Part shown: piece by piece, positions 30,888 to 41,553 of the stretch
Position numbering within the stretch: position 1 is the stretch's first letter
Layout of the letters: each line of letters begins with the position of its first letter
Source of the DNA: Bacteroidales bacterium
GTDB lineage: Bacteria; Bacteroidota; Bacteroidia; Bacteroidales; Bacteroidaceae
NCBI GenBank assembly: GCA_022784065.1
Contig: JALFUO010000071.1
Coordinates: 1-54,125 of the forward strand
Reading direction: 5' to 3'
DNA: 54,125 nucleotides
Made by a program: the position numbers and the translations under genes
Notes under the pieces: generated by a model
What the model was told of the DNA's origin: nothing
What the model saw: only the letters and a program-made list of their open reading frames with translations
Database searches by the model: none

Positions 30888-32144
30888 ATGTCCCTTCCCC
30901 GTACTCCCTGGACCTGGCTGCCCACGCTCTACATAGCCGAAGGCATACCATATATCGTTGTCACCGTCGTAGCCACCATTATGTATAAGCGGCTCGGCAT
31001 CGGCAACGCCGACATCGCGTTTTACACCTCTTGGCTCTATCTTCCGTGGGTCATCAAACCCTTTTGGAGCCCCATTGTGGACGCGTTCGGCACAAAGCGC
31101 ATGTGGATCATTGCGATGCAGCTCATCATCGGCGCGGCCCTCGGCGGACTTGCGCTGACGCTGCCCGCGCCCGGCTTTTTCAAATGGTCGCTCGCCTTTT
31201 TCTGGCTGCTCGCCTTCTCGAGTGCGACCCACGACATCGCCGCCGACGGCTTCTACATGCTGGCACTCACGAAGAAAGAGCAGGCCTTCTACGTAGGCAT
31301 ACGCTCCACCTTCTACCGCGTTGCCATCATAGCGGGACAGGGCTTACTCATCATGCTTGCCGGCACGCTCGAACTCATTTACAAGCCCGCCGCCGCATGG
31401 GCAACCGTGATGCTCGTGGCCGCCGCCCTCTTCCTGCTGCTTGCCGCCTGGCATTTGGCATCGCTGCCCCGCACGGAAATAAGGGCAGAATGTCCGCGCT
31501 CCCAAGGCAACTTCACCGGCGGCATCATCAAGCCCTTCATCAGTTTTTTCCGCAAGCCCGGCATCGGCTGTGCCTTGGCGTTCATGCTGCTTTACCGCCT
31601 GCCTGAGGCATTCCTCACCAAGATAACGCCCCTCTTCCTGCTCGACAGCGTGGAGGGCGGCGGCTTGGCGCTCACCACGGCCGAGATAGGTTTCGTGCAA
31701 GGCACGGTAGGCATCGTGGGGCTCACGCTCGGCGGCATCCTCGGCGGCATCCTCGCCGCCGGCAAGGGTGGCATGAAGCGTTGGCTCTGGCCGATGGTGG
31801 CGAGCATCACGATTCCCGATGCGCTCTATATCATCCTCGCCTATTACCAGCCAGAAAACCTCACGCTGATTGGGGCTTTCGTGTTCTTGGAGCAGTTCGG
31901 CTATGGTTTCGGCTTCACCGCCTATATGATTTACCTGCTGCAATTTGCGCGCGGCGAGAACTCCACGGCGCACTACGCTTTCGCCACCGGCTTCATGGCT
32001 TTGGGCATGATGCTCCCCGGTTTGGTGAGTGGCGCGTTGCAGGAACTCACGGGCTACCTCAATTTCTTCATCATCACCACCGTGCTATGCAGCGTCACCT
32101 TCCTTGTGTCCGCCCTCGTAAAATTTGATGCGGGCGAAGATTAA
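30888..32144 (+). CDS. AmpG-like MFS permease (PAT family)
   Basis: 418 residues with about 12 membrane segments. The N-terminus PTLYIAEGIPYIVVTVVATIMYKRLG and FYTSWLYLPWVIKPFWSPIVD is the AmpG/PAT pattern, followed by LAFSSATHDIAADGFYM (conserved acidic residue in TM4-5). AmpG proteins import anhydro-muropeptides from the periplasm for peptidoglycan recycling, or in PAT relatives import acetyl-CoA or other solutes. The gene follows a fusion protein with a SpoIID-like domain, which supports a peptidoglycan-fragment link. Next plus-strand gene is 700 bases away. Confidence 0.85.
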   Translation: MSLPRTPWTWLPTLYIAEGIPYIVVTVVATIMYKRLGIGNADIAFYTSWLYLPWVIKPFWSPIVDAFGTKRMWIIAMQLIIGAALGGLALTLPAPGFFKWSLAFFWLLAFSSATHDIAADGFYMLALTKKEQAFYVGIRSTFYRVAIIAGQGLLIMLAGTLELIYKPAAAWATVMLVAAALFLLLAAWHLASLPRTEIRAECPRSQGNFTGGIIKPFISFFRKPGIGCALAFMLLYRLPEAFLTKITPLFLLDSVEGGGLALTTAEIGFVQGTVGIVGLTLGGILGGILAAGKGGMKRWLWPMVASITIPDALYIILAYYQPENLTLIGAFVFLEQFGYGFGFTAYMIYLLQFARGENSTAHYAFATGFMALGMMLPGLVSGALQELTGYLNFFIITTVLCSVTFLVSALVKFDAGED

Positions 32145-32763: not shown

Positions 32764-32771
32764 TACATTTG
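32764..32771 (+). promoter_or_regulatory. -7 element of the RiPP cluster promoter
   Basis: TACATTTG matches TAnnTTTG. GTTTC at 32742-32746 is a possible weak -33 at slightly short spacing. It lies 69 bases upstream of the protease ATG at 32841 and is the only promoter-like site found in front of the cluster. A CACAG/CTGTG stem (32803-32817) sits in the leader. Confidence 0.5.
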
Positions 32772-32840
32772 CAACAGAAAATAAGAAAGCGATGAGCTGC
32801 TACACAGAAAGCCTGTGTGAAAAGGTTATTTAATTATCCT

Positions 32841-33167
32841 ATGTCAAATACTGCAACGAAAGAAATCGTCGATAAAGATTTGCAAAGGCGCAATAAAGGC
32901 CTTATCCGCCGAGTAAAGACCGCCTTATTTGACAACTGGTGCCTGAAACGCTCTAAACTTATATATTTTTTTGCATCCAGACTTTTCCGAAGTGACGTTA
33001 GGATTAACATCGCCATGCGTTGCCGCTCCGATAACAGCAAGGACTGGGGGCATGCGTGGGTGACGTGCGGCGGGAAGCCCCTATTGGAGCACAACGAGCG
33101 CCTGATTAGCAAAAAGCGCACCCTGATAGCAGAAGACAATAAATATATATACTGGATTTACGACTAA
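32841..33167 (+). CDS. Minimal lasso-B2/transglutaminase-like cysteine protease (leader peptidase)
   Basis: 108 residues from the ATG at 32841 (MSNTATKE); a GTG at 32817 would add 8. Residues 34-50, CLKRSKLIYFFASRLFR, fit the catalytic-Cys helix of B2 proteins (Cys-L-x-R-S pattern), followed by VRINIAMR and GHAWV with the catalytic His71; Glu83 lies 12 residues after the His, where B2 proteins usually have Asp. B2 proteins of lasso clusters (PF13471-type) cut the leader from the precursor. This one lacks most flanking sequence and is near minimal size. It opens the cluster, 11 bases before radical SAM 1. Function as precursor protease is inferred from motif and context. Confidence 0.65.
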   Translation: MSNTATKEIVDKDLQRRNKGLIRRVKTALFDNWCLKRSKLIYFFASRLFRSDVRINIAMRCRSDNSKDWGHAWVTCGGKPLLEHNERLISKKRTLIAEDNKYIYWIYD

Positions 33168-33178
33168 TATAACAACCA

Positions 33179-34129
33179 ATGGCAAACTTATATCTCACGC
33201 ATAAATGCAGGCGCGGTTGCCCGTTTTGCTTTGCCCGCAAAGTGCTCAAAGCGGCGCACAACGTGGAGGAAAAGCTCACGCTCGAAGAGATTGAGCAATT
33301 TGTGTCGCATTATGAGGGACAAATCGATTCGCTCGGCCTGCTCGGCGGCGAGCCGTTTCTCTATCCCGACCTTGTAAAGGTGATAGAACTCCTGAAACGT
33401 CATCATATCCATTCCAAGATATTCACCAGCGCCACTGACCCGCTGCCCGAAGGCCTTGCCGAGTTTGACATCTCGCAGGGCGACATAAACTTTATCGTGA
33501 ATGTGGGCAGCCGCGACACCTATACCGACGAGAAGTTTGCCAACCTTGAACGCTTCTTTGACAAGTTTCATTCTATCTCCGCGCTGTCGTACACGATTTT
33601 CGACCTGGAAAAGGACAATCCCGAGTTCCTCTTCGACATGATAGACCACTACGGGCTGGTGCGCAACATACGCACGGGCATAGCCCTGCCTATCTATCGC
33701 GGCGGCAACAGTTACATAGCCCTCGACGACTACAAGCGCGCGGCGGAATACTTCTGCGCCTGCGCCGAGAAAGCCGCCAAGCGGCGCATTACGCTGGCAA
33801 TGGACTGCGGCTTTCAGGCGTGCATGTTTACCGACGCCCAGTTGGGCAGACTGTTCCGCCTTGGCACTAATCTGGGCTTCATGTGCGGCGCAGCGTTGGA
33901 CATCGGTCCGGGTTTGAAGGTGTGGAACTGCTTCCCGCTCTTCCAGTTGGGTTGCGTGGACGCCCTTGGTGCCAAGACGCTCGATGAGCTCAAGCTTAAT
34001 TTGCAGAAAAGGCTCAACGAAGAACTGGGCAGCGGGCGCGGCGTGCGTCCCGAGTGTGCAGCCTGCGAGCTCTACGACCGCAAACTGTGCGAAGGCGGTT
34101 GCAAAAGTTTTAAATCGGTAGCATTATAA
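33179..34129 (+). CDS. Radical SAM/SPASM peptide-modifying enzyme 1
   Basis: 316 residues. The SAM-cleaving [4Fe-4S] motif is Cys10-x3-Cys14-x2-Cys17 in CRRGCPFCFA, just after the short strand MANLYLTHK; LLGGEPF (about 58-64) is the SAM-contact GGE motif. The C-terminus has a SPASM-type Cys pattern: MCGAALDIGPGLKVWNCFP, then ECAACELYDRKLCEGGC. Such enzymes bind auxiliary clusters and modify peptide side chains (C-C, C-S, C-N bonds or epimerisation). Same architecture as radical SAM 4 at 37958, which also starts only nine residues before its first Cys. Located between the protease and the PqqD-like gene, so possibly the first modifying enzyme. Product unknown. Confidence 0.88.
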   Translation: MANLYLTHKCRRGCPFCFARKVLKAAHNVEEKLTLEEIEQFVSHYEGQIDSLGLLGGEPFLYPDLVKVIELLKRHHIHSKIFTSATDPLPEGLAEFDISQGDINFIVNVGSRDTYTDEKFANLERFFDKFHSISALSYTIFDLEKDNPEFLFDMIDHYGLVRNIRTGIALPIYRGGNSYIALDDYKRAAEYFCACAEKAAKRRITLAMDCGFQACMFTDAQLGRLFRLGTNLGFMCGAALDIGPGLKVWNCFPLFQLGCVDALGAKTLDELKLNLQKRLNEELGSGRGVRPECAACELYDRKLCEGGCKSFKSVAL

Positions 34130-34147
34130 TTTTCAATATATAAAACC

Positions 34148-34399
34148 ATGGAAATCAGTAAAAACGTGACTTGGAAAACCCTCGGCGAGAAGGTTATTGC
34201 TGTTAAGGTAGACACCGGCGAGTACTACACGCTCAACGAAGTGGCATCTGTGATATGGAAAGCCATCGACGAAGGAAAATCCAAAGAAGACATCGCAGAA
34301 AAGATTTGCACCGAGTACGATGCAACAGATAAAGCTTCGGTGTTGCAAGACATCGAGGAACAAATCAGTGAGTGGCAACATGAATTATTAATCCTTTAA
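34148..34399 (+). CDS. PqqD-like RiPP precursor-recognition protein (RRE; B1-type)
   Basis: 83 residues. The PqqD/RRE pattern is clear: beta-strands at the start (NVTWKTLGEKVIAVKVDTGEYYTLNEVASVIWKAI), then DEGKSKEDIAEKICTEYDATDKASVLQDIEEQI, matching the family's y-x-LN-x-x-x-x-x-W core and helical tail. RREs bind the leader peptide and deliver it to the modifying enzymes; in lasso systems the stand-alone form is called B1. It lies 12 bases upstream of the precursor gene, the usual order. The likely binding site is the YxxP element in the precursor leader. Confidence 0.88.
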   Translation: MEISKNVTWKTLGEKVIAVKVDTGEYYTLNEVASVIWKAIDEGKSKEDIAEKICTEYDATDKASVLQDIEEQISEWQHELLIL

Positions 34400-34411
34400 A
34401 TTAGTACGACT

Positions 34412-34531
34412 ATGACTAAGAAAACTTACGAGAAGCCGCAGACAAGCAAGCACGCTTCTATGGACGTTGTCCAGGGTTCAGGTCTGTATTACACGACGCT
34501 GTATTACACCAGCCTGTATTACTGGCATTAA
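34412..34531 (+). CDS. RiPP precursor peptide with three LYYxx repeats
   Basis: A 39-residue ORF, ATG to TAA. The leader (about residues 1-24) has the TYEKP segment (YxxP, similar to the RRE-recognition motif of lasso leaders), then MDVVQGSG. The core (25-39) is LYYTT, LYYTS, LYYWH, encoded by three 15-bp units (34484-34498, 34499-34513, 34514-34528) in which CTG TAT TAC is identical each time. It sits 12 bases after the PqqD-like gene, and the next reading frame begins at the base after its stop. The repetitive aromatic core, short length and neighbours identify it as a precursor; the leader cleavage site (perhaps after GSG) is inferred. No homologue is known to me. Confidence 0.8.
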   Translation: MTKKTYEKPQTSKHASMDVVQGSGLYYTTLYYTSLYYWH

Positions 34532-34549
34532 TTGTCGTTAATCAAAGTA

Positions 34550-35518
34550 ATGAGTGCGAACTACGCATTGATTGTCGAGGTGGCAGGTGTCTCTATCCGT
34601 TTCCAATCGGAAATGGAGGTTGACATCTGTCACCTTAGCACACTCTTCAAGCATCACTTGGTAGCCAATGATGCTACGGCAGCGGATCACGTTGTAGACA
34701 TTGTGACGATAGAGCGTTCGCCCGTGCCCGAAGATGCCACTTTGGCGTGGAAAGGCTATTACCACGGCGTGGGCTATGACGGAAAGCACGAAAACACGCT
34801 GAAGAAATACGTGTCACAAGACAAGCGGTATGAGTACTTCGATACGCCCGACGGCGGCTGTATCACCATCGACCGGGAAAGCCCCCATACCGTTTGTTCG
34901 CTGATGTCGTGGAAAAAACTGTTCAGCAAGAAGAAAGAACGCGCTAACATCGGCTCGCTCGTTATCCTTCTGATTCATATAATCATGGCGCGGCACAACC
35001 GCTACACGCTGCACGCCTCCGCTGTGGCGTGGAAAGGCGCGGCAATAGTGTTCACAGGCCGCAGCGGACAGGGCAAGAGCACCCTTTGCACGGACCTCAC
35101 CAAGCTCGGAGCAGGGTTTATGGGCGACGACATCGTCTTCGTGTACCAAGAAGCAAGCAGGATAATGATTGCCCCCTTGCTCTTTGACGCCAAACTATAC
35201 ATAGACTCCCAAAAAGAAAAGACATTTGTGGATATGGCGGCGCAAAGCGGCTGCGAAGCGGGCGCGGCACTGCCATTACAGGCTGTTGCCGAAATCACGC
35301 AGACGCGCCAGGGCCTCTCTGCCGTACGGCAGGCAGCCGATGAGCATCGCCTGTTTGACGTGCTGCTGGAAGCGGCCAACAACATCGCCCTGCAATACGA
35401 CAGCGCCGAATGGCTGTCGCTCTGCGCCAATATCTTAGAACATAAAAAGCTCTATAATTTCTCCTTTGGCGACCGCCGCCTGCTTAATGTAAACGTTCTC
35501 GATGACTTCATTCAGTAA
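34550..35518 (+). CDS. HPr kinase-like protein
   Basis: 322 residues from the ATG at 34550; a TTG at 34532, abutting the precursor stop, would add 6. The N-terminal half is a beta-rich region without a known fold. The C-terminal half is an HPrK-type P-loop domain: LHASAVAWKGAAIVF (His155 after TL), Walker A GRSGQGKS (170-177), and GDDIVFV (192-198) as the acidic Walker-B-like motif. HPr-kinase-like proteins in lasso clusters phosphorylate the precursor, for paeninodin at the C-terminal Ser; here the core ends in Trp-His, but Thr, Ser and Tyr occur inside it. HPrK-like proteins are also linked to polysaccharide systems. Overlaps radical SAM 2 by 17 bases. Confidence 0.82.
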   Translation: MSANYALIVEVAGVSIRFQSEMEVDICHLSTLFKHHLVANDATAADHVVDIVTIERSPVPEDATLAWKGYYHGVGYDGKHENTLKKYVSQDKRYEYFDTPDGGCITIDRESPHTVCSLMSWKKLFSKKKERANIGSLVILLIHIIMARHNRYTLHASAVAWKGAAIVFTGRSGQGKSTLCTDLTKLGAGFMGDDIVFVYQEASRIMIAPLLFDAKLYIDSQKEKTFVDMAAQSGCEAGAALPLQAVAEITQTRQGLSAVRQAADEHRLFDVLLEAANNIALQYDSAEWLSLCANILEHKKLYNFSFGDRRLLNVNVLDDFIQ

Positions 35519-36875
35519 CACAGAAATATTATCGCTATGGCAGATGCCCGGCGAGGCTATGTGGCGCATTGCATTGCAGCAGGCTTTGCAGAATTTGCCC
35601 CAATCGGCATCGCTCTGCGTGGAATTGCTGCGCACCGCGCCGCAGGAACGGTTGGACGACTGCGCGAAGGCATTTCTCTCAAAACTACCTTTCCTGAAAG
35701 AAGGCTATGCGCCGGTGGAAAAGCTGACCGATACAAAGGTTTGCGACTCCTTTGCCAGTTTGGCAGAAAGCTATAAAGCCATTTTACATGACCTGAAAGT
35801 AAGGAACGATCAAGAAACCGCTAAAATCTTCTACCTATACTTCAACGGCTTGCGACCCGACTTGAAGCTTCTCTTTCCGGAAACGGACTTTACGGGCTTG
35901 CGCCGCGACAACGAGCGCGACAAGAAAGAGGAGCATCAGCTCATGGTGTTCGTGACGGGGCTATGCAACCTGAATTGTTCCTATTGCTTCTCCAACGACA
36001 TAGAGCGCAGGCAGATTACAGAGGACGAATTACGTAAAATTTTCAAGTGGGCATCTGAAAACGGCTGCAACTGTGTTACGCCCTGCGGCGGAGAGCCATT
36101 GATGTACAAGCACATCGGTCTGCTGCTCGACTTGGTGCAGGATTACGGCATGACTACCTATTTTGCCTCTAATTGCACCTGGCCTTTATCACGCTTCACT
36201 GAGCGGCAAGCCAGTTGCATTAAAAGCCTGACTTTCCACATCACCGAAGCGCTGTGGAAGAACGCGGAATATATGCGCATCTTCTGCGAAAACATACAGT
36301 GGGCAAAGCAGCGCGGCATAAATATCATAGCCCGATTTAACATCGTAAAGCCGAATACAGACTTTACAAAATGCTTCGAACTGATAGAGAAACAGGAGCT
36401 GAAATGCGTGAACATCGCCCTGACTATTCCCGACCGTTCGCACGATAATATATATGTAGGCGCGTCCTATTTCTCTGACTTTATCGATGACCTGCGGCGC
36501 GTATTGGATTTTTGCAAGAAACGTAAAATCAGCCTCAACTTTGCCAAGACTGTACCGCCTTGCATATTCCCGGAAGAAGAGGCGTTGCAAATGCTGGCTT
36601 ACGATAACTTTCTCCCCTTCTGCAATGTACACGAAGACGGCGGCACGCGCAACGTATGCATTTCCCCTGCGAAATACATCACGCCCTGCCTCGGCATGTC
36701 GGCACCAAAAGTGCTTTTCTCGGAAAAGCTGACGTGGGACGATTTGTACAAACAGATGGGCACGGCGGTAAACTGCGCCTTGCGCCAACCGCTCTTTAAA
36801 AAATGCAATAAGTGCTTCCTTTACCACAGACACCTGTGCCAAGGAGCCTGCTTAAGTTATAAAACACATGCGTAG
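35502..36875 (+). CDS. Radical SAM/SPASM-like enzyme 2 with N-terminal extension
   Basis: 457 residues. An N-terminal region of about 150 residues (helical, Leu-rich, unknown) precedes the radical SAM motif CNLNCSYCF (Cys155, 159, 162) and the variant CGGEP SAM-contact motif. The C-terminus is Cys-rich, with CISPAKYITPCLG, then KKCNKCFLYHRHLCQGAC, in SPASM fashion. It is longer than enzymes 1, 3 and 4. The extension may bind leader, kinase or another partner. Start ATG lies 17 bases inside the kinase gene; stop overlaps the next gene by 8 bases, so the three are likely translated together. Confidence 0.85.
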   Translation: MTSFSNTEILSLWQMPGEAMWRIALQQALQNLPQSASLCVELLRTAPQERLDDCAKAFLSKLPFLKEGYAPVEKLTDTKVCDSFASLAESYKAILHDLKVRNDQETAKIFYLYFNGLRPDLKLLFPETDFTGLRRDNERDKKEEHQLMVFVTGLCNLNCSYCFSNDIERRQITEDELRKIFKWASENGCNCVTPCGGEPLMYKHIGLLLDLVQDYGMTTYFASNCTWPLSRFTERQASCIKSLTFHITEALWKNAEYMRIFCENIQWAKQRGINIIARFNIVKPNTDFTKCFELIEKQELKCVNIALTIPDRSHDNIYVGASYFSDFIDDLRRVLDFCKKRKISLNFAKTVPPCIFPEEEALQMLAYDNFLPFCNVHEDGGTRNVCISPAKYITPCLGMSAPKVLFSEKLTWDDLYKQMGTAVNCALRQPLFKKCNKCFLYHRHLCQGACLSYKTHA

Positions 36876-37914
36876 CAAACGGATAAAGCGTTTCAGGCAG
36901 CATCTGCATAATGCCTTTCAGAAATTCCGTCTGCGCTATTTGCAGCCGGGACGGCTCACGCATCTGCCCGACACGCTGACCATCGAACTGACCAGCCATT
37001 GCTCGCTGGCTTGCTCATGCTGCCCCAACGGCATCGCCGGCGCACGCCGTCGCGGTCGCGACACCATAACGCTTGACAACTTCAAGAAGCTACTTGAGAA
37101 TATTGACGTGCCTGTGCGCAGCGTGTTCCTGCACCTCCACGGCGAACCGTTCCTCAATAAAGATTTGCCCGAAATCGTCAGGCTGCTTGCAGAGCACGGC
37201 GTTGAGGAGTTTAATATCTTTAGCAATGCATACAACATCAAGCCCGACCTGCTCGAAAACGTGCTGCGCAGTGTGGACGGCAAAAAGCTCAACCTTGCCT
37301 TCTCGGCGGAATTGTACGACAGGCAGGCGTATGAGCACATTCGCTGTCCCGGGCGTTTCGATACGGTGTGGCAGTCGCTGCAAGATATTGACGCGTTGAT
37401 GCAGAAGCACGGCGCAACCTACTCTGTGAACAGCATCGTGCATCGAGAAGACATCGGTATCTTGCCCGAACGGGTCCCGGATGTATTTCGCCGCCTGCCG
37501 AGCCTGAAAAGCATGCACCTGACAAGTGCTTTCCCCTGGCCGCATCTGCCGCAAACGGGCGACCTGGCCGGGCATTTGCGTCGCAAACGAAGCATTTGCA
37601 ACCAAATTTGGCAGTTGCCTGCGATTATGGCCGACGGCAGAGTGACGATGTGCTCGAGCGACTATAACGCGGAGTGCGTGGTCGGGTCGCTCTACGAGGA
37701 AAAGTTCAGCAAAATCATCAACAATAAGGCCGCCCGCGCCTTCCGCCGCAACATTGCCCTGCGCCGCCCTGAAAGCAACGCGCTCTGCAAGGGCTGCCTG
37801 ATAGACCGCCACACGGCGTTTTCGCGCATCGTGAACCGCAAGTTTGTGGAAAAGGCCGCGCCCGAGGCGTTGCAAAAGTATTTTGCAGCGTTTGGCAAAT
37901 ATTTTAATATTTAA
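36868..37914 (+). CDS. Radical SAM/twitch-SPASM-like enzyme 3
   Basis: 348 residues. The radical SAM motif is CSLACSCCPN (Cys45, 49, 52); the SAM-contact motif is HGEPF in place of GGEP (about residue 90). The C-terminal segment has ICNQIWQLPAIMADGRVTMCSSDYN and LCKGC, enough Cys for an auxiliary cluster but fewer than a full SPASM. The basic N-terminus (MRSKRIKRFRQHL) may be a linker. It most resembles the MoaA/PqqE-like peptide-modifying branch. The reaction is unknown. Confidence 0.85.
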   Translation: MRSKRIKRFRQHLHNAFQKFRLRYLQPGRLTHLPDTLTIELTSHCSLACSCCPNGIAGARRRGRDTITLDNFKKLLENIDVPVRSVFLHLHGEPFLNKDLPEIVRLLAEHGVEEFNIFSNAYNIKPDLLENVLRSVDGKKLNLAFSAELYDRQAYEHIRCPGRFDTVWQSLQDIDALMQKHGATYSVNSIVHREDIGILPERVPDVFRRLPSLKSMHLTSAFPWPHLPQTGDLAGHLRRKRSICNQIWQLPAIMADGRVTMCSSDYNAECVVGSLYEEKFSKIINNKAARAFRRNIALRRPESNALCKGCLIDRHTAFSRIVNRKFVEKAAPEALQKYFAAFGKYFNI

Positions 37915-37957
37915 TATTTAGAATATCTCCCGTTTATAAACATTCATACAGAAGAAT

Positions 37958-38920
37958 ATGCCCAACTTAATGCTTACCAACTGGTGCAACTACCATTGCC
38001 CTTATTGTTTCGGCGTGGACATGATGGTGCCCAAAAAGCCGAGGAACGCCATGAGCCGCGAAACGTTCAACGGCATTATGGAATGGATGCAACGCAAACC
38101 GTTCGACCGCGTGATACACCTTATGGGCGGCGAACCGACGCTCAATCCCGACATCGAATGGTTCGTGAACCGCTTGCTGGAACAGAACATGCACATCACG
38201 ATTTTCAGCAATATGGCAACGCCCCAGGCAGTGCAGCTGGCGGATAAATGCTCTATGTTGCCCGTGCACTGGGTGGCCAACGTTAATAACCCCACAAAAT
38301 GGAACAAGGCGCAGCGCGAAAACATCTCTAAAGCACTCCGTGCAGCAGGCAAGCATGCCTCTATCACATTTAACATACAACCCGAAGAGCCTAACGAACT
38401 GTGGGCGCTGGAACTGATTGAAGAGTTCGGGCTGAACCCGAATATCAAGGTGGGTTTTGTGCTGCCGACGCTCACCTCGTCGAACATGGCCCTCAAGGAC
38501 AGCGAGTACGGCATTGTGGCGCAGCGTGTGGTAGACCTCGTGAAGGCAGGCGAGCGGCTCGGCGTAAGCGTAAGTTATGAGTGCGGCGTGCCTTATTGCG
38601 TGTTTACTGACGAACAATTAGGCTTTTTGTGGCGGCACAACTCCAAACCCGCTTCCGGCTGCTGCTCGCGCCTTGACATTACGCCCGAGGGCGAAGTGAT
38701 GTATTGCCTCCCGCTGGCTACGGCGGGCTTGCGCCACTACTCAGAATTTGCTGACTACCATGAATGTCGCAAGTGGTTCGAAGACCGCTTTAAGCCTTAC
38801 CGAATGTTGGGCAGCAAAATAGAATGTGCCGAATGTCCCCTCAACAATCCGATGCAGTGTCGCGGGGCGTGCCTGGCAAAGAATATGATTGGGGCAAAGA
38901 ACATTGAGATAGGAAGATAA
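37958..38920 (+). CDS. Radical SAM/SPASM peptide-modifying enzyme 4
   Basis: 320 residues. It is organised like enzyme 1: first strand PNLMLTN, then CNYHCPYCFG (Cys10, 14, 17), LMGGEPTLNPD (about 57-67), and a SPASM-type tail CCSRLDITPEGEVMYCLPLA then ECAECPLNNPMQCRGACLAKN. The extra Cys-containing block YECGVPYCVFT (about 206-216) is shared in form with enzyme 1 (MDCGFQACMFT). Enzymes 1 and 4 may act on different residues of the same repeat, or form a pair; this is inference. Its stop is directly followed by the GTG start of the nucleotidyltransferase. Confidence 0.87.
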   Translation: MPNLMLTNWCNYHCPYCFGVDMMVPKKPRNAMSRETFNGIMEWMQRKPFDRVIHLMGGEPTLNPDIEWFVNRLLEQNMHITIFSNMATPQAVQLADKCSMLPVHWVANVNNPTKWNKAQRENISKALRAAGKHASITFNIQPEEPNELWALELIEEFGLNPNIKVGFVLPTLTSSNMALKDSEYGIVAQRVVDLVKAGERLGVSVSYECGVPYCVFTDEQLGFLWRHNSKPASGCCSRLDITPEGEVMYCLPLATAGLRHYSEFADYHECRKWFEDRFKPYRMLGSKIECAECPLNNPMQCRGACLAKNMIGAKNIEIGR

Positions 38921-39862
38921 GTGATACAATTTCCCGAAAATAAAGTCTGTGTGCCAACAGGCGAGGCAGACATGGTGCGCGCTCTGCTCGTACAAGACAA
39001 CTACGAATGGATTGCCAGGCGGGCGAAGACTTTGGGCATTAAGGTGGTGCCGATTAAAGGCATTGACCTGCTGCAAACGGTTTATGCCGAACGCTTTGAC
39101 CGCCCCGTTCGCGACATTGACTTGCTCTGCTATTCGGAAGAAGATTGCCGTCGACTGGCAAACGACCTGACAGGAGAGGGTAGTTATCGCCTTGAATTTG
39201 AGTTCTCGCTCCGTCCTGAAGCACTTGCCACCAAGCGCAAAGTATCTCTGCTCTCAAATGTGCGGACAAAGGTGAACGTGGATATTCATACGGCATTGGT
39301 AACCAAGAAATTCTTTTCGCGCACCGTTGGGACGTTCAACGAAGACGCTTTGCAGCGCATCGCAGGAGGACGCTTGGAAACCGTGGACCGTTGGCTCTTC
39401 TTGGCACAACATGCAGCTTTCCACAACTTCTCGGATCCAAAGTGGGTGCGCGATTTGAAAATCATCTACCAAAACTTTTCGGAGGAACAACGTGCGGAAA
39501 TCTCCCGCCGTGGTGGTCAGTATGGGTTCGGCCGCGTAGTGAAGGCTGCCCTTTGGCATTGCGGCGAATGGCAGGGCGAAGAAAATGCCTTCCTGCGTTT
39601 CGTGCGCCGACTCAATCGCCCTTGGAAGCACAATCTGTTTTACCGTTTCATTGCTGGATTTTGGGAATTTGCCTTTATAGAAAAGAGGAGCGCGCGGTTA
39701 CGGGCATTTCGAGATTTGATATTTCCGAATCTCGGTACGCTCACCAATATCTACCGCGTCCGGCACAAAGCATTGTTGCCGATGTACTACCTGCTCAATA
39801 TACTGATTATGCTGCCCGCCGCGCTGCTATTCGGAGGCGTATATATAATAATGAGTAGATGA
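38921..39862 (+). CDS. Nucleotidyltransferase, PF14907-type (NTP_transf_5)
   Basis: 313 residues from a GTG at 38921. Seen: KGIDLLQTVYAE (46-57), RPVRDIDLLCYSEED with the catalytic Asp65-x-Asp67, and VNVDIHTAL with the third acidic Asp at 121, the pattern of this nucleotidyltransferase family. The C-terminal third has a hydrophobic segment (MYYLLNILIMLPAALLFGGVYIIMS) that could anchor the protein to the membrane. Nucleotidyltransferases accompany kinase genes in some lasso clusters and also polysaccharide loci. Substrate here (peptide phosphate or sugar phosphate) is not known. Followed by a gap of 75 bases. Confidence 0.82.
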   Translation: MIQFPENKVCVPTGEADMVRALLVQDNYEWIARRAKTLGIKVVPIKGIDLLQTVYAERFDRPVRDIDLLCYSEEDCRRLANDLTGEGSYRLEFEFSLRPEALATKRKVSLLSNVRTKVNVDIHTALVTKKFFSRTVGTFNEDALQRIAGGRLETVDRWLFLAQHAAFHNFSDPKWVRDLKIIYQNFSEEQRAEISRRGGQYGFGRVVKAALWHCGEWQGEENAFLRFVRRLNRPWKHNLFYRFIAGFWEFAFIEKRSARLRAFRDLIFPNLGTLTNIYRVRHKALLPMYYLLNILIMLPAALLFGGVYIIMSR

Positions 39863-39937
39863 ATAGCAAAATTAAATATTACTGCAAAGCAATAAAAAGG
39901 GAAAGCCTGCGTTAATAATGTAAAAACAAATACAACA

Positions 39938-40582
39938 ATGGAGGCTATAATGCTTATGCAGGAAGAAAACATAGTGATAGAAGATGGCATGTCGGTGTGG
40001 GGGCAAGCAGCGAAAAGGACGATTGACTGCCTGCTGGCAGCCGTGCTGCTCGTCGTGTTTTCGCCCCTCTTTCTGATTTGCTATATCGCCGTCAAGCTTG
40101 AAGACGGCGGGGCTGCTATTTTCAAGCAAGAGCGCATCGGCTTGCACGGCAAACCCTTCTATATCTATAAGTTCAGGAGTATGTGTATGGGCGCAGAAAA
40201 GGGCGGGCCGAGGCTCTTTGCCGGCGAAAAGGACGACCGCCTCACCAAGACGGGCAAATTTCTCCGCGACCACCATCTCGACGAACTGCCGCAGCTTTGG
40301 AACGTGTTTGTAGGCGACATGGCTTTTATCGGGCCGCGCCCGGAGCGTAAGTTCTATATCGACAAGATTATGGAGTGCGACCCGCGCTATGCGGAACTTT
40401 ATAAAATCCGCCCGGGCGTCACTTCTTACGCCACGCTCTACAACGGCTACACCGATACGCTCGAGAAAATGCTGCGCCGCCTCGAACTCGATTTGTACTA
40501 CCTAGAGCACCGCTCTTGGATCTTCGACATGAAAATCCTTTGGCAGACGTTTTATAAAATTGTTTCAGGAAATAAATTCTAA
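39938..40582 (+). CDS. Bacterial sugar transferase (phosphoglycosyltransferase)
   Basis: 214 residues. One membrane helix near the N-terminus (AVLLVVFSPLFLICYIAVKL) followed by FKQERIGLHGKPFYIYKFRSM and the signature HHLDELPQLWNVFVGDMAFIGPRPER (about 109-134). These are monotopic phosphoglycosyltransferases of the PglC/WcaJ type that move a sugar 1-phosphate to a polyprenyl phosphate at the inner membrane, starting exopolysaccharide or glycan synthesis. As the last gene before the terminator it may belong to the RiPP transcript or be a polysaccharide gene; no other glycan genes are adjacent. Confidence 0.9.
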   Translation: MEAIMLMQEENIVIEDGMSVWGQAAKRTIDCLLAAVLLVVFSPLFLICYIAVKLEDGGAAIFKQERIGLHGKPFYIYKFRSMCMGAEKGGPRLFAGEKDDRLTKTGKFLRDHHLDELPQLWNVFVGDMAFIGPRPERKFYIDKIMECDPRYAELYKIRPGVTSYATLYNGYTDTLEKMLRRLELDLYYLEHRSWIFDMKILWQTFYKIVSGNKF

Positions 40583-40585
40583 AAC

Positions 40586-40619
40586 AAAAAGGGACGCAAT
40601 TGATTGCGTCCCTTTTTTT
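40586..40619. terminator. Strong bidirectional terminator after the RiPP cluster
   Basis: Stem GGGACGCAAT/ATTGCGTCCC (40591-40600 and 40603-40612) with A-run before and T-run after, between the sugar transferase (+) and phoH (-) stops. Confidence 0.88.
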
Positions 40620-41553
40620 ATTGCTTGTTCCTTTCATATGCCTCGACGATGCGCGTGACGAGCTTGTGGCGCACGATGTCGCCTTTGTCCATCTCTATGA
40701 AAGCGATGCCGGGAATGCCACGCAGGAGTTCTATCGCCTCGATAAGGCCGCTGCGCACGGAGTGGGGCAGGTCGATCTGCGTGCGGTCGCCCGTGATAAT
40801 CATCTTAGTGTTCCAGCCCATACGGGTTAGGAACATTTTTATTTGCGCCGAGGTCGTGTTTTGCGCTTCGTCGAGAATGACTACCGCATCGTTGAGCGTG
40901 CGGCCACGCATAAAGGCGAGCGGGGCAATCTGTATGACATTCGTCTCTATATATTCCTGCAATTTGGCAGGCGGTATCATTTCCTCCAAAGCATCGTAGA
41001 GCGGGCGCAGATAGGGGTCGATTTTTTCTTTCATGTCGCCCGGCAGAAATCCCAGTTTTTCGCCCGCCTCCACTGCGGGGCGGCTGAGGATTAGTTTCTT
41101 GACCTCTTTGTTTTTCAGCGCACGCACGGCGAGCGCGATGGCGGTATAGGTCTTGCCAGAGCCGGCGGGGCCGACGGCAAACAGCATGTCGTTCGTCCGG
41201 AATGCCTCTACGAGTTTGCGCTGATTGGCCGAGCGGGGCGCGATGGGGCGGCCGCCCGTGCTGTAAACGATGGTGTCGGAATTGGCATCGCTCTCGGCGG
41301 TGCGGTGCTTGAGGATATTGATGATGTCCTCCTCTGCGAGCCGATTGTACTTGGCGCAGTGGCGGTCGAGTGCGGCGAACGTTTCGTCGAACGCCGCCAT
41401 GTCTTCTTCGCTGCCGATGACGCGCACCACGTTGTCGCGGGCCACGATGCGCAGCTTTGGGCAAAGGGCGCGGAGCAGGCGCAGGTTGGCATTGTTGGCG
41501 CCGTAAAAGAGCGCGGGGTCGGAGGATTCTATTAGGAAATGCTTTTCTGTCAT
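40618..41553 (-). CDS. phoH: PhoH-like ATPase
   Basis: 311 residues from the ATG at 41553 (MTEKHFLI); an upstream frame extension is rejected. Contains a KH-like N-terminal part, then the P-loop GPAGSGKTYTAIALA (about 140-154), VVILDEAQNTT (Walker B, DEAQ) and TGDRTQIDLP (sensor region), normal for the PhoH family (RNA/nucleotide-binding ATPases, function uncertain in bacteria). Stop is one side of the terminator at 40586-40619. A -7-like TATTTTTG on the minus strand at 41578-41585 lies upstream. Confidence 0.94.
   Translation of the reverse strand: MTEKHFLIESSDPALFYGANNANLRLLRALCPKLRIVARDNVVRVIGSEEDMAAFDETFAALDRHCAKYNRLAEEDIINILKHRTAESDANSDTIVYSTGGRPIAPRSANQRKLVEAFRTNDMLFAVGPAGSGKTYTAIALAVRALKNKEVKKLILSRPAVEAGEKLGFLPGDMKEKIDPYLRPLYDALEEMIPPAKLQEYIETNVIQIAPLAFMRGRTLNDAVVILDEAQNTTSAQIKMFLTRMGWNTKMIITGDRTQIDLPHSVRSGLIEAIELLRGIPGIAFIEMDKGDIVRHKLVTRIVEAYERNKQ

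Follow-up and report, generated by a model that had tools for sequence, protein, structure and literature searches.

The stretch of DNA under study (hereafter, the window) covers the 54,125 nucleotides of contig JALFUO010000071.1 from the Bacteroidales bacterium assembly GCA_022784065.1. It contains a compact group of ten open reading frames (ORFs) on the + strand, between positions 32817 and 40582, which very probably represents, to judge from its sequence, an operon for a ribosomally synthesized and post-translationally modified peptide (RiPP). Ten same-strand genes with overlaps or tiny gaps had been described in an earlier note on this DNA, and this arrangement was confirmed: neighbouring genes overlap or are separated by 75 bases at most, the successive distances from gene 1 to gene 10 being 11, 18, 12, 0, -17, -8, 43, 0 and 75 bases. 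The genes code, in this order, for a B2-like leader peptidase (left unnamed in the note), a radical S-adenosylmethionine (SAM) protein (rSAM1), a PqqD-like stand-alone RiPP recognition element (RRE), a 39-residue peptide, an HPrK-like kinase, three further radical SAM proteins (rSAM2, rSAM3 and rSAM4), a nucleotidyltransferase-like protein and a sugar-phosphate transferase (Table 1). The earlier assignments of the PqqD-like protein, the four radical SAM proteins and the nucleotidyltransferase were borne out by Pfam matches of 54, 36.7 to 48 and 64 bits, respectively (Radical_SAM cutoff, 29.5 bits). The 39-residue ORF has no family match, and its C-terminal end reads LYYTT-LYYTS-LYYWH, exactly as previously noted.

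Related clusters were collected by rSAM4 and not by the peptide. A three-row rSAM4 alignment was searched against an 84,980-species genome collection, which gave 18 Bacteroidales loci; 16 of these were new, and two (L042 and L039, the contigs of genomes G025 and G560) were already in the query alignment. The window and the 18 loci form the comparison set of 19 clusters used throughout. Loci L014/L042 and L025/L039 represent one contig each and were counted once; the identical precursors of L031-L033 were counted as one, and L038 and L039 share one core, which leaves 17 distinct precursors and 16 distinct cores. The contig of L044 starts too near rSAM1 to show the B2 gene and was left out of the B2 count (n = 18), and the rSAM3 alignment has 18 rows, with L035 left out. 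The families given for the loci are Prevotellaceae, Bacteroidaceae, Muribaculaceae, Rikenellaceae, Porphyromonadaceae, Odoribacteraceae, Tannerellaceae and Dysgonamonadaceae, or Bacteroidales only, and several isolate names refer to deer or buffalo gut samples. G025 is the sole other cluster-bearing genome among 58 of the genus, and G560 carries the cluster in another family of the order. In the genus and family searches rSAM2 proved of little use as a probe, since G025 was the one full-length relative besides the window, both among the 58 genus genomes and among 399 genomes of the family, where G331 gave a partial match. An rSAM4 search around G560 found five of 297 family genomes, all of which, judged by contig number and position, appear already in the set; none was added. 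A search in the genus of G815 found one of four genomes, with the same locus. On viral contigs, 51 stretches matched a pattern, and none of them encoded a relative.

Seven genes (rSAM1, PqqD, precursor, kinase, rSAM3, rSAM4 and nucleotidyltransferase) occur in each of the 19 clusters, and the B2 gene in all 18 clusters whose contig reaches that far; rSAM2 is present in 14 and an ATP-binding cassette (ABC) transporter gene in 15. The four radical SAM enzymes noted earlier are all there in the window, but rSAM2 is optional, being missing from five of the 19 clusters. The sugar transferase probably lies outside the cluster, because it occurs in one cluster of 19, with no homologue in any of the 18 related loci, and is preceded by the 75-base gap. 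Two gene orders were observed. In the window and in L031-L036, rSAM4 lies downstream of rSAM3 (or of the ABC gene) and upstream of the nucleotidyltransferase gene; in the other 12 clusters it lies directly behind rSAM1. The genes of the kit have thus remained linked in spite of rearrangement. The nucleotidyltransferase motif KG...D[IVL]D was found in 18 of 19 clusters (the match in L045 is a different stretch and was not counted).

An extra gene is inserted between rSAM4 and the nucleotidyltransferase gene in L031-L033, L035 and L036, and encodes a DUF6056 protein in the three that were scanned (L033, L035 and L036); in L033 it is followed by a lipid A acyltransferase family gene. It is possible that, in some of the relatives, these genes serve to add glycosyl or acyl groups to the product. 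They might also be taken to mean that the short ORF is not a precursor at all, and that the radical SAM genes serve cell-surface glycan synthesis together with the sugar transferase, the nucleotidyltransferase and a BtrN-like enzyme. The sugar transferase next door in the window would suit such a pathway, as would DUF6056 in three relatives and the acyltransferase gene in one, of those scanned. However, the sugar transferase is confined to one cluster of 19, and both the PqqD gene and the ORF, the latter with a synonymous excess in close pairs, recur in all 19. This explanation, which we consider hardly credible, is largely refuted by the comparative data.

The precursor ORF always lies between the PqqD and kinase genes. 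Because it occupies this same slot in 18/18 loci fetched by rSAM4 similarity, as it does in the window, it is not a chance ORF. The first refuting condition of the earlier note, a precursor ORF not conserved next to the enzymes in related genomes, did not come true, as the ORF stands beside them in 19/19 clusters. A precursor profile detected one copy in each of 16 genomes searched (those of L032, L033 and L039 were left out), and a second match in the window genome G000 (E 0.037) was weak and was judged spurious. The leader follows the pattern YxKPxTx[KR]HxxxxxVQGS, with fixed spacing and no indels, in all 19 sequences. We infer that it ends at VQG, which makes SGLYYTTLYYTSLYYWH the core in the window; when the Gly of VQG is numbered -1, the nine positions Y-17, K-15, P-14, T-12, H-9, V-3, Q-2, G-1 and S+1 are invariant in 19/19.

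After VQGS there follow 14 to 29 residues. The cores of the 17 distinct precursors add up to 361 residues, made up of 148 Tyr, 64 Leu, 58 Thr, 32 Ser, 17 Gly, 12 Val, 12 His, 7 Arg, 5 Lys, 3 Trp, 2 Phe and 1 Glu, with no Cys, Asp, Asn, Gln, Ala, Pro, Met or Ile. A thioether RiPP (sactipeptide or ranthipeptide) was rejected on the zero Cys count. In the 16 distinct cores, every one of the 59 Leu residues precedes Tyr (57) or His (2), and the distance from one Leu to the next is five residues in 32 of 43 steps; the commonest units are LYYTS (11 times) and LYYTT (7). The description of a precursor with three LYYxx repeats holds for this strain, but not for the family, in which a core has 2 to 5 LY/LH units. 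The five units of L035 are encoded by five different codon strings, and therefore are not a fresh DNA duplication. Comparison of close pairs showed an excess of synonymous over nonsynonymous codon changes: 17:0 in the core and 12:3 in the leader between L038 and L039, 13:0 among L031-L033 (three comparisons together), and 7:1 in the core between the window and L034. This excess points to selection acting on the peptide. The combination that generally characterizes a RiPP, a conserved leader and a variable core beside modifying enzymes, was thus found in 19/19 clusters, and the proposal that the tyrosine repeats are the modified core comes out strengthened by the constant leader, by the variable core of LY units, and by the frequent location of distant rSAM1 relatives near Tyr-rich proteins (see below). 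Tyr and the LY units are probably the substrate of the radical SAM enzymes.

Table 1. Coordinates of the features in the window and in related loci (positions in related loci are preceded by the locus designation).
Feature	Position	Strand	Remarks
TAnnTTTG element TACATTTG	32764..32771	+	Bacteroidetes-type -7 element, likely operon promoter
B2-like leader peptidase (Transglut_core3)	32817..33167	+	start GTG 32817 or ATG 32841; PF13471
rSAM1, SPASM-type radical SAM, candidate Tyr-modifying enzyme	33179..34129	+	PF04055, 48 bits
PqqD-like stand-alone RRE (B1-like)	34148..34399	+	PF05402, 54 bits; 19/19 clusters
Precursor peptide, 39 residues MTKKTYEKPQTSKHASMDVVQGSGLYYTTLYYTSLYYWH	34412..34531	+	same slot in 19/19 clusters
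HPrK-like kinase	34532..35518	+	start TTG 34532 or ATG 34550; active-site set 19/19
rSAM2, helical N-terminal domain and radical SAM/SPASM	35502..36875	+	Radical_SAM, 38.5 bits; 14/19 clusters
rSAM3, radical SAM with SPASM/twitch, BtrN-like	36868..37914	+	Radical_SAM, 36.7 bits; PF13186 SPASM, 42 bits; 19/19
rSAM4, SPASM-type rSAM1 paralogue	37958..38920	+	Radical_SAM, 47.2 bits; 19/19
Nucleotidyltransferase-like protein (NTP_transf_5)	38921..39862	+	PF14907, 64 bits; 19/19
Sugar-phosphate transferase (Bac_transf)	39938..40582	+	205 bits; probably a neighbour, not part of the cluster
Fusion gene, 1293 residues	26888-30769		glycosyltransferase family 2, DUF4922 and SpoIID domains
Major facilitator superfamily transporter gene	30888-32144		adjoins the fusion gene
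DUF6056 genes	L033:10963-12468, L035:9891-11420, L036:6674-8188		between rSAM4 and nucleotidyltransferase
Tyr-rich ORFs (e.g. NYYSYYYSYYYSYYSYY)	L026:7911-8288, L027:2617-3618, L029:3415-3873, L030:3917-4576
Tyr-rich ORFs, further loci	L072:4788-5600, L073:4269-5144, L074:6160-7131
rSAM1-type gene with neighbouring genes, genome G033	L015:5354-10672		44% to the L027 copy

The leader and the proteins expected to handle it resemble those of lasso peptides, a likeness that had been missed in the earlier note. According to Duan et al. (2023), lasso leaders carry YxxPxL at -17 to -12, a biosynthetic gene cluster described there comprises genes for precursor, B1, B2, cyclase, ABC transporter, kinase and nucleotidyltransferase, and the residue set of the kinase BsfK is printed as H-G-G-G-K-S-D-D (PMC10368454). 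In the present clusters, the leader Y and P fall at the lasso YxxPxL places in 19/19, if the cut is after VQG. The first gene matches PF13471 Transglut_core3 marginally (27.3 bits, cutoff 26) and lasso_biosyn_B2 of NCBIfam below cutoff (24.6 bits against 33), and its Cys and His are invariant in the 18 aligned sequences. The best NCBIfam matches of the PqqD-like protein are to lasso_PqqD (38.7 and 35.8 bits, cutoffs 70 and 80). As for the kinase, the match to Hpr_kinase_C is below the Pfam cutoff (28 against 33.3 bits), and those to HprK_rel_B and HprK_rel_A in NCBIfam reach 37.8 and 35.8 bits (cutoffs 200). The set H-G-G-G-K-[ST]-D-D is present in 19/19; its spacing is that of BsfK in 18, and L043 has one extra residue. 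Lasso clusters with separate B1 and B2, kinase and nucleotidyltransferase genes (the bsf cluster of Bradymonas sediminis and those of the paeninodin and pseudomycoidin type) thus share with the present one YxxP at -17 to -14 (if cut after VQG), a PqqD-type RRE, a putative Transglut_core3 Cys peptidase, an HPrK-like kinase with the same residue set, a nucleotidyltransferase and, usually, an ABC exporter. Unlike them, the clusters described here have no cyclase on their contigs, three or four radical SAM enzymes, T-12, H-9 and Q-2 in the leader, and a Tyr-dominated core without an acidic ring residue. Taken together, these proteins make it quite probable that the product is a RiPP with lasso-type leader handling.

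No match to PF00733, the family of the Asn-synthase-type cyclase, was found on any cluster contig of the 19 genomes. Elsewhere in these genomes there are 31 matches, distributed over 17 of them; strong ones occur in six genomes, the single match in the window genome is weak, scoring 21.7 bits and covering 64 profile positions, and at E 0.001 nothing matched in G815 or G1509, some assemblies being incomplete. Because the cluster contigs carry no cyclase gene and the cores have hardly any acidic residue, the product is predicted to contain no lasso ring. The alternative, a lasso peptide whose cyclase is encoded elsewhere and whose radical SAM genes serve as decoration, would account for the leader spacing, RRE, B2, kinase, nucleotidyltransferase and ABC transporter. 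It is nevertheless very improbable, considering that none of the 31 PF00733 matches is on a cluster contig (within the limits of the incomplete assemblies), that the extra gene before the nucleotidyltransferase gene in L033, L035 and L036 encodes DUF6056, and that a lasso ring needs an Asp or Glu in the core, where 361 residues include no Asp and one Glu.

A lasso-like kit without a cyclase, and with a different peptidase, has been reported for the LPP peptides of Bacillota (Popov et al., 2026; PMC13381572). LPP clusters and the present ones have in common an RRE, an HPrK-like kinase, an NTP transferase, an MsbA-like ABC transporter, the lack of a cyclase, and a YxxP leader with a His eight residues after the Tyr; an SpI peptidase, the leader YxxPxVLxHQxIxFETxxS, and precursors of 35-200 residues, one to three per cluster, are features of the LPPs (PMC13381572). 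The leader here departs from the LPP motif after the shared Y, P and H, and no SpI gene was seen among the ten genes of the window (other loci were not searched by model).

The enzymes rSAM1 and rSAM4 are paralogues with 26% identity. In both, the CX3CX2C motif and the same pattern of eight further Cys residues (11 Cys) are invariant in 19/19 sequences, and the eight would be expected for two auxiliary clusters. The top match in the Protein Data Bank (PDB) of the AlphaFold2 (AF2) model of rSAM1 (pLDDT 81.7) is SuiB (5v1q, E 5.6e-9), followed by PqqE (6c8v, 2.3e-6). SuiB makes carbon-carbon bonds in peptides, and so does PqqE. The list also has DesII, QueE, a sactipeptide enzyme and an epimerase; therefore, the fold alone cannot name the reaction of rSAM1. 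rSAM2 (AF2 pLDDT 85) is nearest to SuiB both by fold (1.6e-11, TM by query 0.47) and by profile (6.3e-12). Its N-terminal domain of about 140 residues is modelled all-helical, and a fused RRE was dropped as a candidate on this ground. With SuiB (streptide) and PqqE (pyrroloquinoline quinone, PQQ) these enzymes share the SPASM architecture, but the identity in structural alignments is 13-19%, the substrates are different, and the NCBIfam models score far below cutoff. On the whole, the radical SAM proteins did not group with a named non-RiPP function, which the earlier note had considered as a way in which its reading could fail, although rSAM3 is nearest to BtrN.

In the NCBIfam comparisons, which used the best 25 matches per protein, no triceptide/cyclophane maturase model (GrrM/FxsB/XyeB type) was matched at cutoff by any of rSAM1-4. 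The streptide maturase model TIGR04080 gave 35 bits for rSAM2 against a cutoff of 500, and the window core has no Lys; the PqqE and MftC equivalog models gave 17-33 bits, among the matches listed, against cutoffs of 381 and 265. Streptide (KxxxW) and PQQ/mycofactocin equivalogs were rejected on these scores. There is also a likeness to the SynChlorMet cassette (ScmA-F), which has paired radical SAM/SPASM enzymes, a PqqD relative, the HPrK-like ScmC and a small precursor, but the window proteins score, among the matches listed, 17-27 bits against Scm cutoffs (ScmC/D/E/F) of 100-400.

The optional rSAM2 is distributed in step with the last residue of the core. Where rSAM2 is present, the core ends in His or Tyr (14/14); where it is absent, that is in L031-L033, L035 and L041, it ends in Arg or Lys (5/5). 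In the five assemblies of the latter group, rSAM2 itself was not found, as only matches to the radical SAM core were obtained (E 1e-8 to 1e-10), and two positive controls gave about 1e-155. In a tree built from 967 columns of rSAM1, rSAM4 and the kinase, rSAM2 presence and the C-terminal residue each change three times, and independent pairs agree. The correlation is a lead and not proof, and whether rSAM2 would act at the C terminus of the core appears evenly balanced.

A further possibility is a redox cofactor pathway of the PQQ/mycofactocin kind, from which only a Tyr-containing fragment would be kept. PqqD, the SPASM enzymes, the C-terminal aromatic residue and the presence of PqqE among the fold matches agree with it, and MftC, which oxidatively decarboxylates a C-terminal Tyr, is reminiscent of the rSAM2 correlation. 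In such a pathway, however, the site that is used should be constant, and the cores vary in length (14 to 29), in the number of units and in the C-terminal residue; moreover, the PqqE and mycofactocin models are, among the matches listed, nowhere near cutoff. A cofactor as the product seems quite improbable.

The above data are compatible with the following pathway. The RRE would hold the leader through YxKPxT, as the lasso B1 protein holds YxxPxL, and the pair rSAM1/rSAM4 would move iteratively along the L-Y units, oxidizing the tyrosines, most likely to carbon-carbon or carbon-oxygen cross-links. rSAM2, where present, would act on the C-terminal His or Tyr, and the kinase, perhaps with rSAM3 and the nucleotidyltransferase, would decorate Ser, Thr or Tyr hydroxyls. 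Finally, B2 would cut after VQG, and the ABC exporter (in 15 of 19 clusters, the window not included) would release the product. We are inclined to see in these clusters an undescribed RiPP family with radical SAM-modified Tyr units, the chemistry of which we infer; that this chemistry consists of cross-links rather than another oxidation is about an even matter.

Several observations weigh against this interpretation. The fold TM-scores to SuiB are modest by query (0.61-0.63 for rSAM1, 0.43-0.47 for rSAM2), the fold-match lists also hold thioether, epimerase, decarboxylase and non-peptide enzymes, and against PDB sequences the rSAM1 profile matches only the radical SAM core of unrelated enzymes. 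Matches of the radical SAM proteins to named families, within the best 25 per protein, are far below the curated cutoffs, and therefore the reaction is not nameable by homology. By profile, rSAM3 is nearest in the PDB to BtrN (8.5e-21), which is an alcohol dehydrogenase; because of this, it may oxidize a hydroxyl or act on a sugar, and it may not act on the peptide. A B2 leader peptidase has the triad Cys-His-Asp, and the B2 protein is short and has no conserved Asp after the His in the 18 aligned sequences. The agreement with the lasso leader numbering depends on the assumed cut after VQG, and in 19/19 leaders Gln stands at -2, where the lasso leaders cited have Thr or Ile/Val, and T-12 replaces Leu. 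The leader changes between the window and L034 are 6 synonymous and 5 nonsynonymous. The window cluster has no exporter, and no relative of the L034 exporter was found at E 1e-30 in the window genome, which is 85% complete; among the 16 assemblies searched at this threshold, it was absent from those of the window, L036, L037 and L041. For rSAM2, the independent pairs on well-supported branches are two, or three if the best tree is taken; the sign test gave p 0.5, and so small a number keeps significance out of its reach. Moreover, L031-L033, which make up three of the five rows without rSAM2, have identical precursors.

An alternative product is an LPP-like peptide, linear and phosphorylated, on which the radical SAM enzymes would introduce changes other than cross-links, such as epimerization, desaturation, hydroxyl oxidation or C-terminal decarboxylation. 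The kinase active-site set in 19/19 clusters, the closeness of rSAM3 to BtrN, and the peptide epimerase EpeE among the lower PDB matches are in line with such a product. On the other hand, both rSAM1 and rSAM2 have a cross-linker, SuiB, as their top match by fold, and an aromatic bias in the core is unnecessary for epimerization. In addition, LPPs use an SpI-type peptidase where these loci have a B2-type gene, and the term radical SAM is absent from the main text of the LPP paper (PMC13381572). We regard this alternative as rather unlikely.

The relatives of rSAM1 outside the cluster also direct attention to tyrosine. Profile searches with rSAM1 at E 1e-20, covering 393 genomes of the order and 395 of the phylum, found, besides the window and G560, five further order genomes and four further phylum genomes. 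Ten loci were read, namely these nine and L015, which came from the genus search. By raw count, a same-strand ORF with 9 to 22 Tyr per about 30 residues lies near the rSAM1 relative in seven of these ten loci; with a threshold of 10 instead of 9 Tyr per 30 residues the count is six, and L072 and L073 are close kin. No Tyr-rich ORF was seen at L015, and L028 and L075 are cut off by a contig edge. A twin-arginine-like start (SRRDALKR, RREAIKM) was observed for the Tyr-rich ORF in six of the seven loci. Neither the PqqD protein nor the kinase of the cluster was seen to have a match at these loci, and all seven have a second radical SAM gene with a partner of 153-307 residues; the second radical SAM protein of L027 gave 105-111 bits against the DynA and DarW models (cutoffs 450 and 650).

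In L072, L073 and L074, which belong to one genus, the ORF continues beyond its Tyr/Ser-rich stretch with a region of well over 100 residues containing GGI[IV]FYVD...VRAF; unlike these, the ORFs at other loci have Tyr-only tails. One flagged reading frame of L026 (strand -, 40 residues) lies opposite a gene. The neighbours of the rSAM1-type gene of L015 include a weak match to the MvdD pre-ATP-grasp domain (24.5 bits, cutoff 27), a 188-residue protein and unknown genes, and this is possibly another peptide-modification locus.

Tyrosine is the property common to the cluster and the Tyr-rich loci, and the latter look like a second, undescribed tyrosine-modification system. A broader and tentative reading, to which we give a good deal less credence than to the family itself, would be that of a new RiPP class, in which a lasso-type leader and kit feed a radical SAM pair reading an L-Y code, to give a repeated ladder of cross-linked tyrosines, and the C-terminal His or Tyr is capped by a third radical SAM enzyme. 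The rSAM1 clade would then be a tyrosine-dedicated SPASM branch acting also on very different proteins, most of them starting with a twin-arginine-like signal and some reaching 22 Tyr per 30 residues, in other genomes of the order and in one genus related only at the phylum level.

Searches of open-licence full-text literature brought up no paper recognized as a description of the cluster, which is apparently undescribed; subscription journals, the home of several radical SAM RiPP surveys, were outside this search. Like the present enzymes as proposed, ApyO of aminopyruvatide biosynthesis joins two Tyr of a YLY motif, but it is a cytochrome P450 and not a radical SAM enzyme (PMC13192836). The Bacteroidales survey of Fernandez-Cantos et al. 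(2023) deals with radical SAM-rich RiPP loci of the same order; PCAT exporters are present in seven of the nine clusters curated there, LanC or YcaO is found together with a radical SAM enzyme in six, most precursors have leaders of the GG type, and the words tyrosine and LYY do not appear in the main text (PMC10352776). Further papers were also drawn on (PMC7533575, PMC9062424, PMC12710340, PMC10885120, PMC8939145).

The 19 natural clusters, with 16 different cores of one substrate design, provide a set for questions of enzyme recognition and of product, and the pattern of rSAM2 and C-terminal residue makes a sharp prediction. They also suggest that the leader, recognition and peptidase parts of the lasso type are separable from the cyclase and can be joined to radical chemistry in Bacteroidales, which would be a second case of this separation, the LPP peptides of Bacillota being the other. 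Judging from the Tyr-rich relatives, radical SAM enzymes that modify tyrosine may form a wider class, which is apparently undescribed.

As to the surroundings of the cluster, the start at 32764 given in the earlier note coincides with the -7-like element of Table 1, but the first gene itself begins at 32817 or 32841. Of 18 loci, the window among them, 15 have TAnnTTTG, the Bacteroidetes -7 consensus, in the interval from -250 to +60 around the first gene's longest start; mononucleotide shuffles, the only control used, gave an expectation of about 16%. No RNA families or tRNAs were found when looked for in the window. Upstream of the cluster lies a gene for a 1293-residue fusion of glycosyltransferase family 2, DUF4922 and SpoIID domains, adjoined by a gene for a transporter of the major facilitator superfamily.

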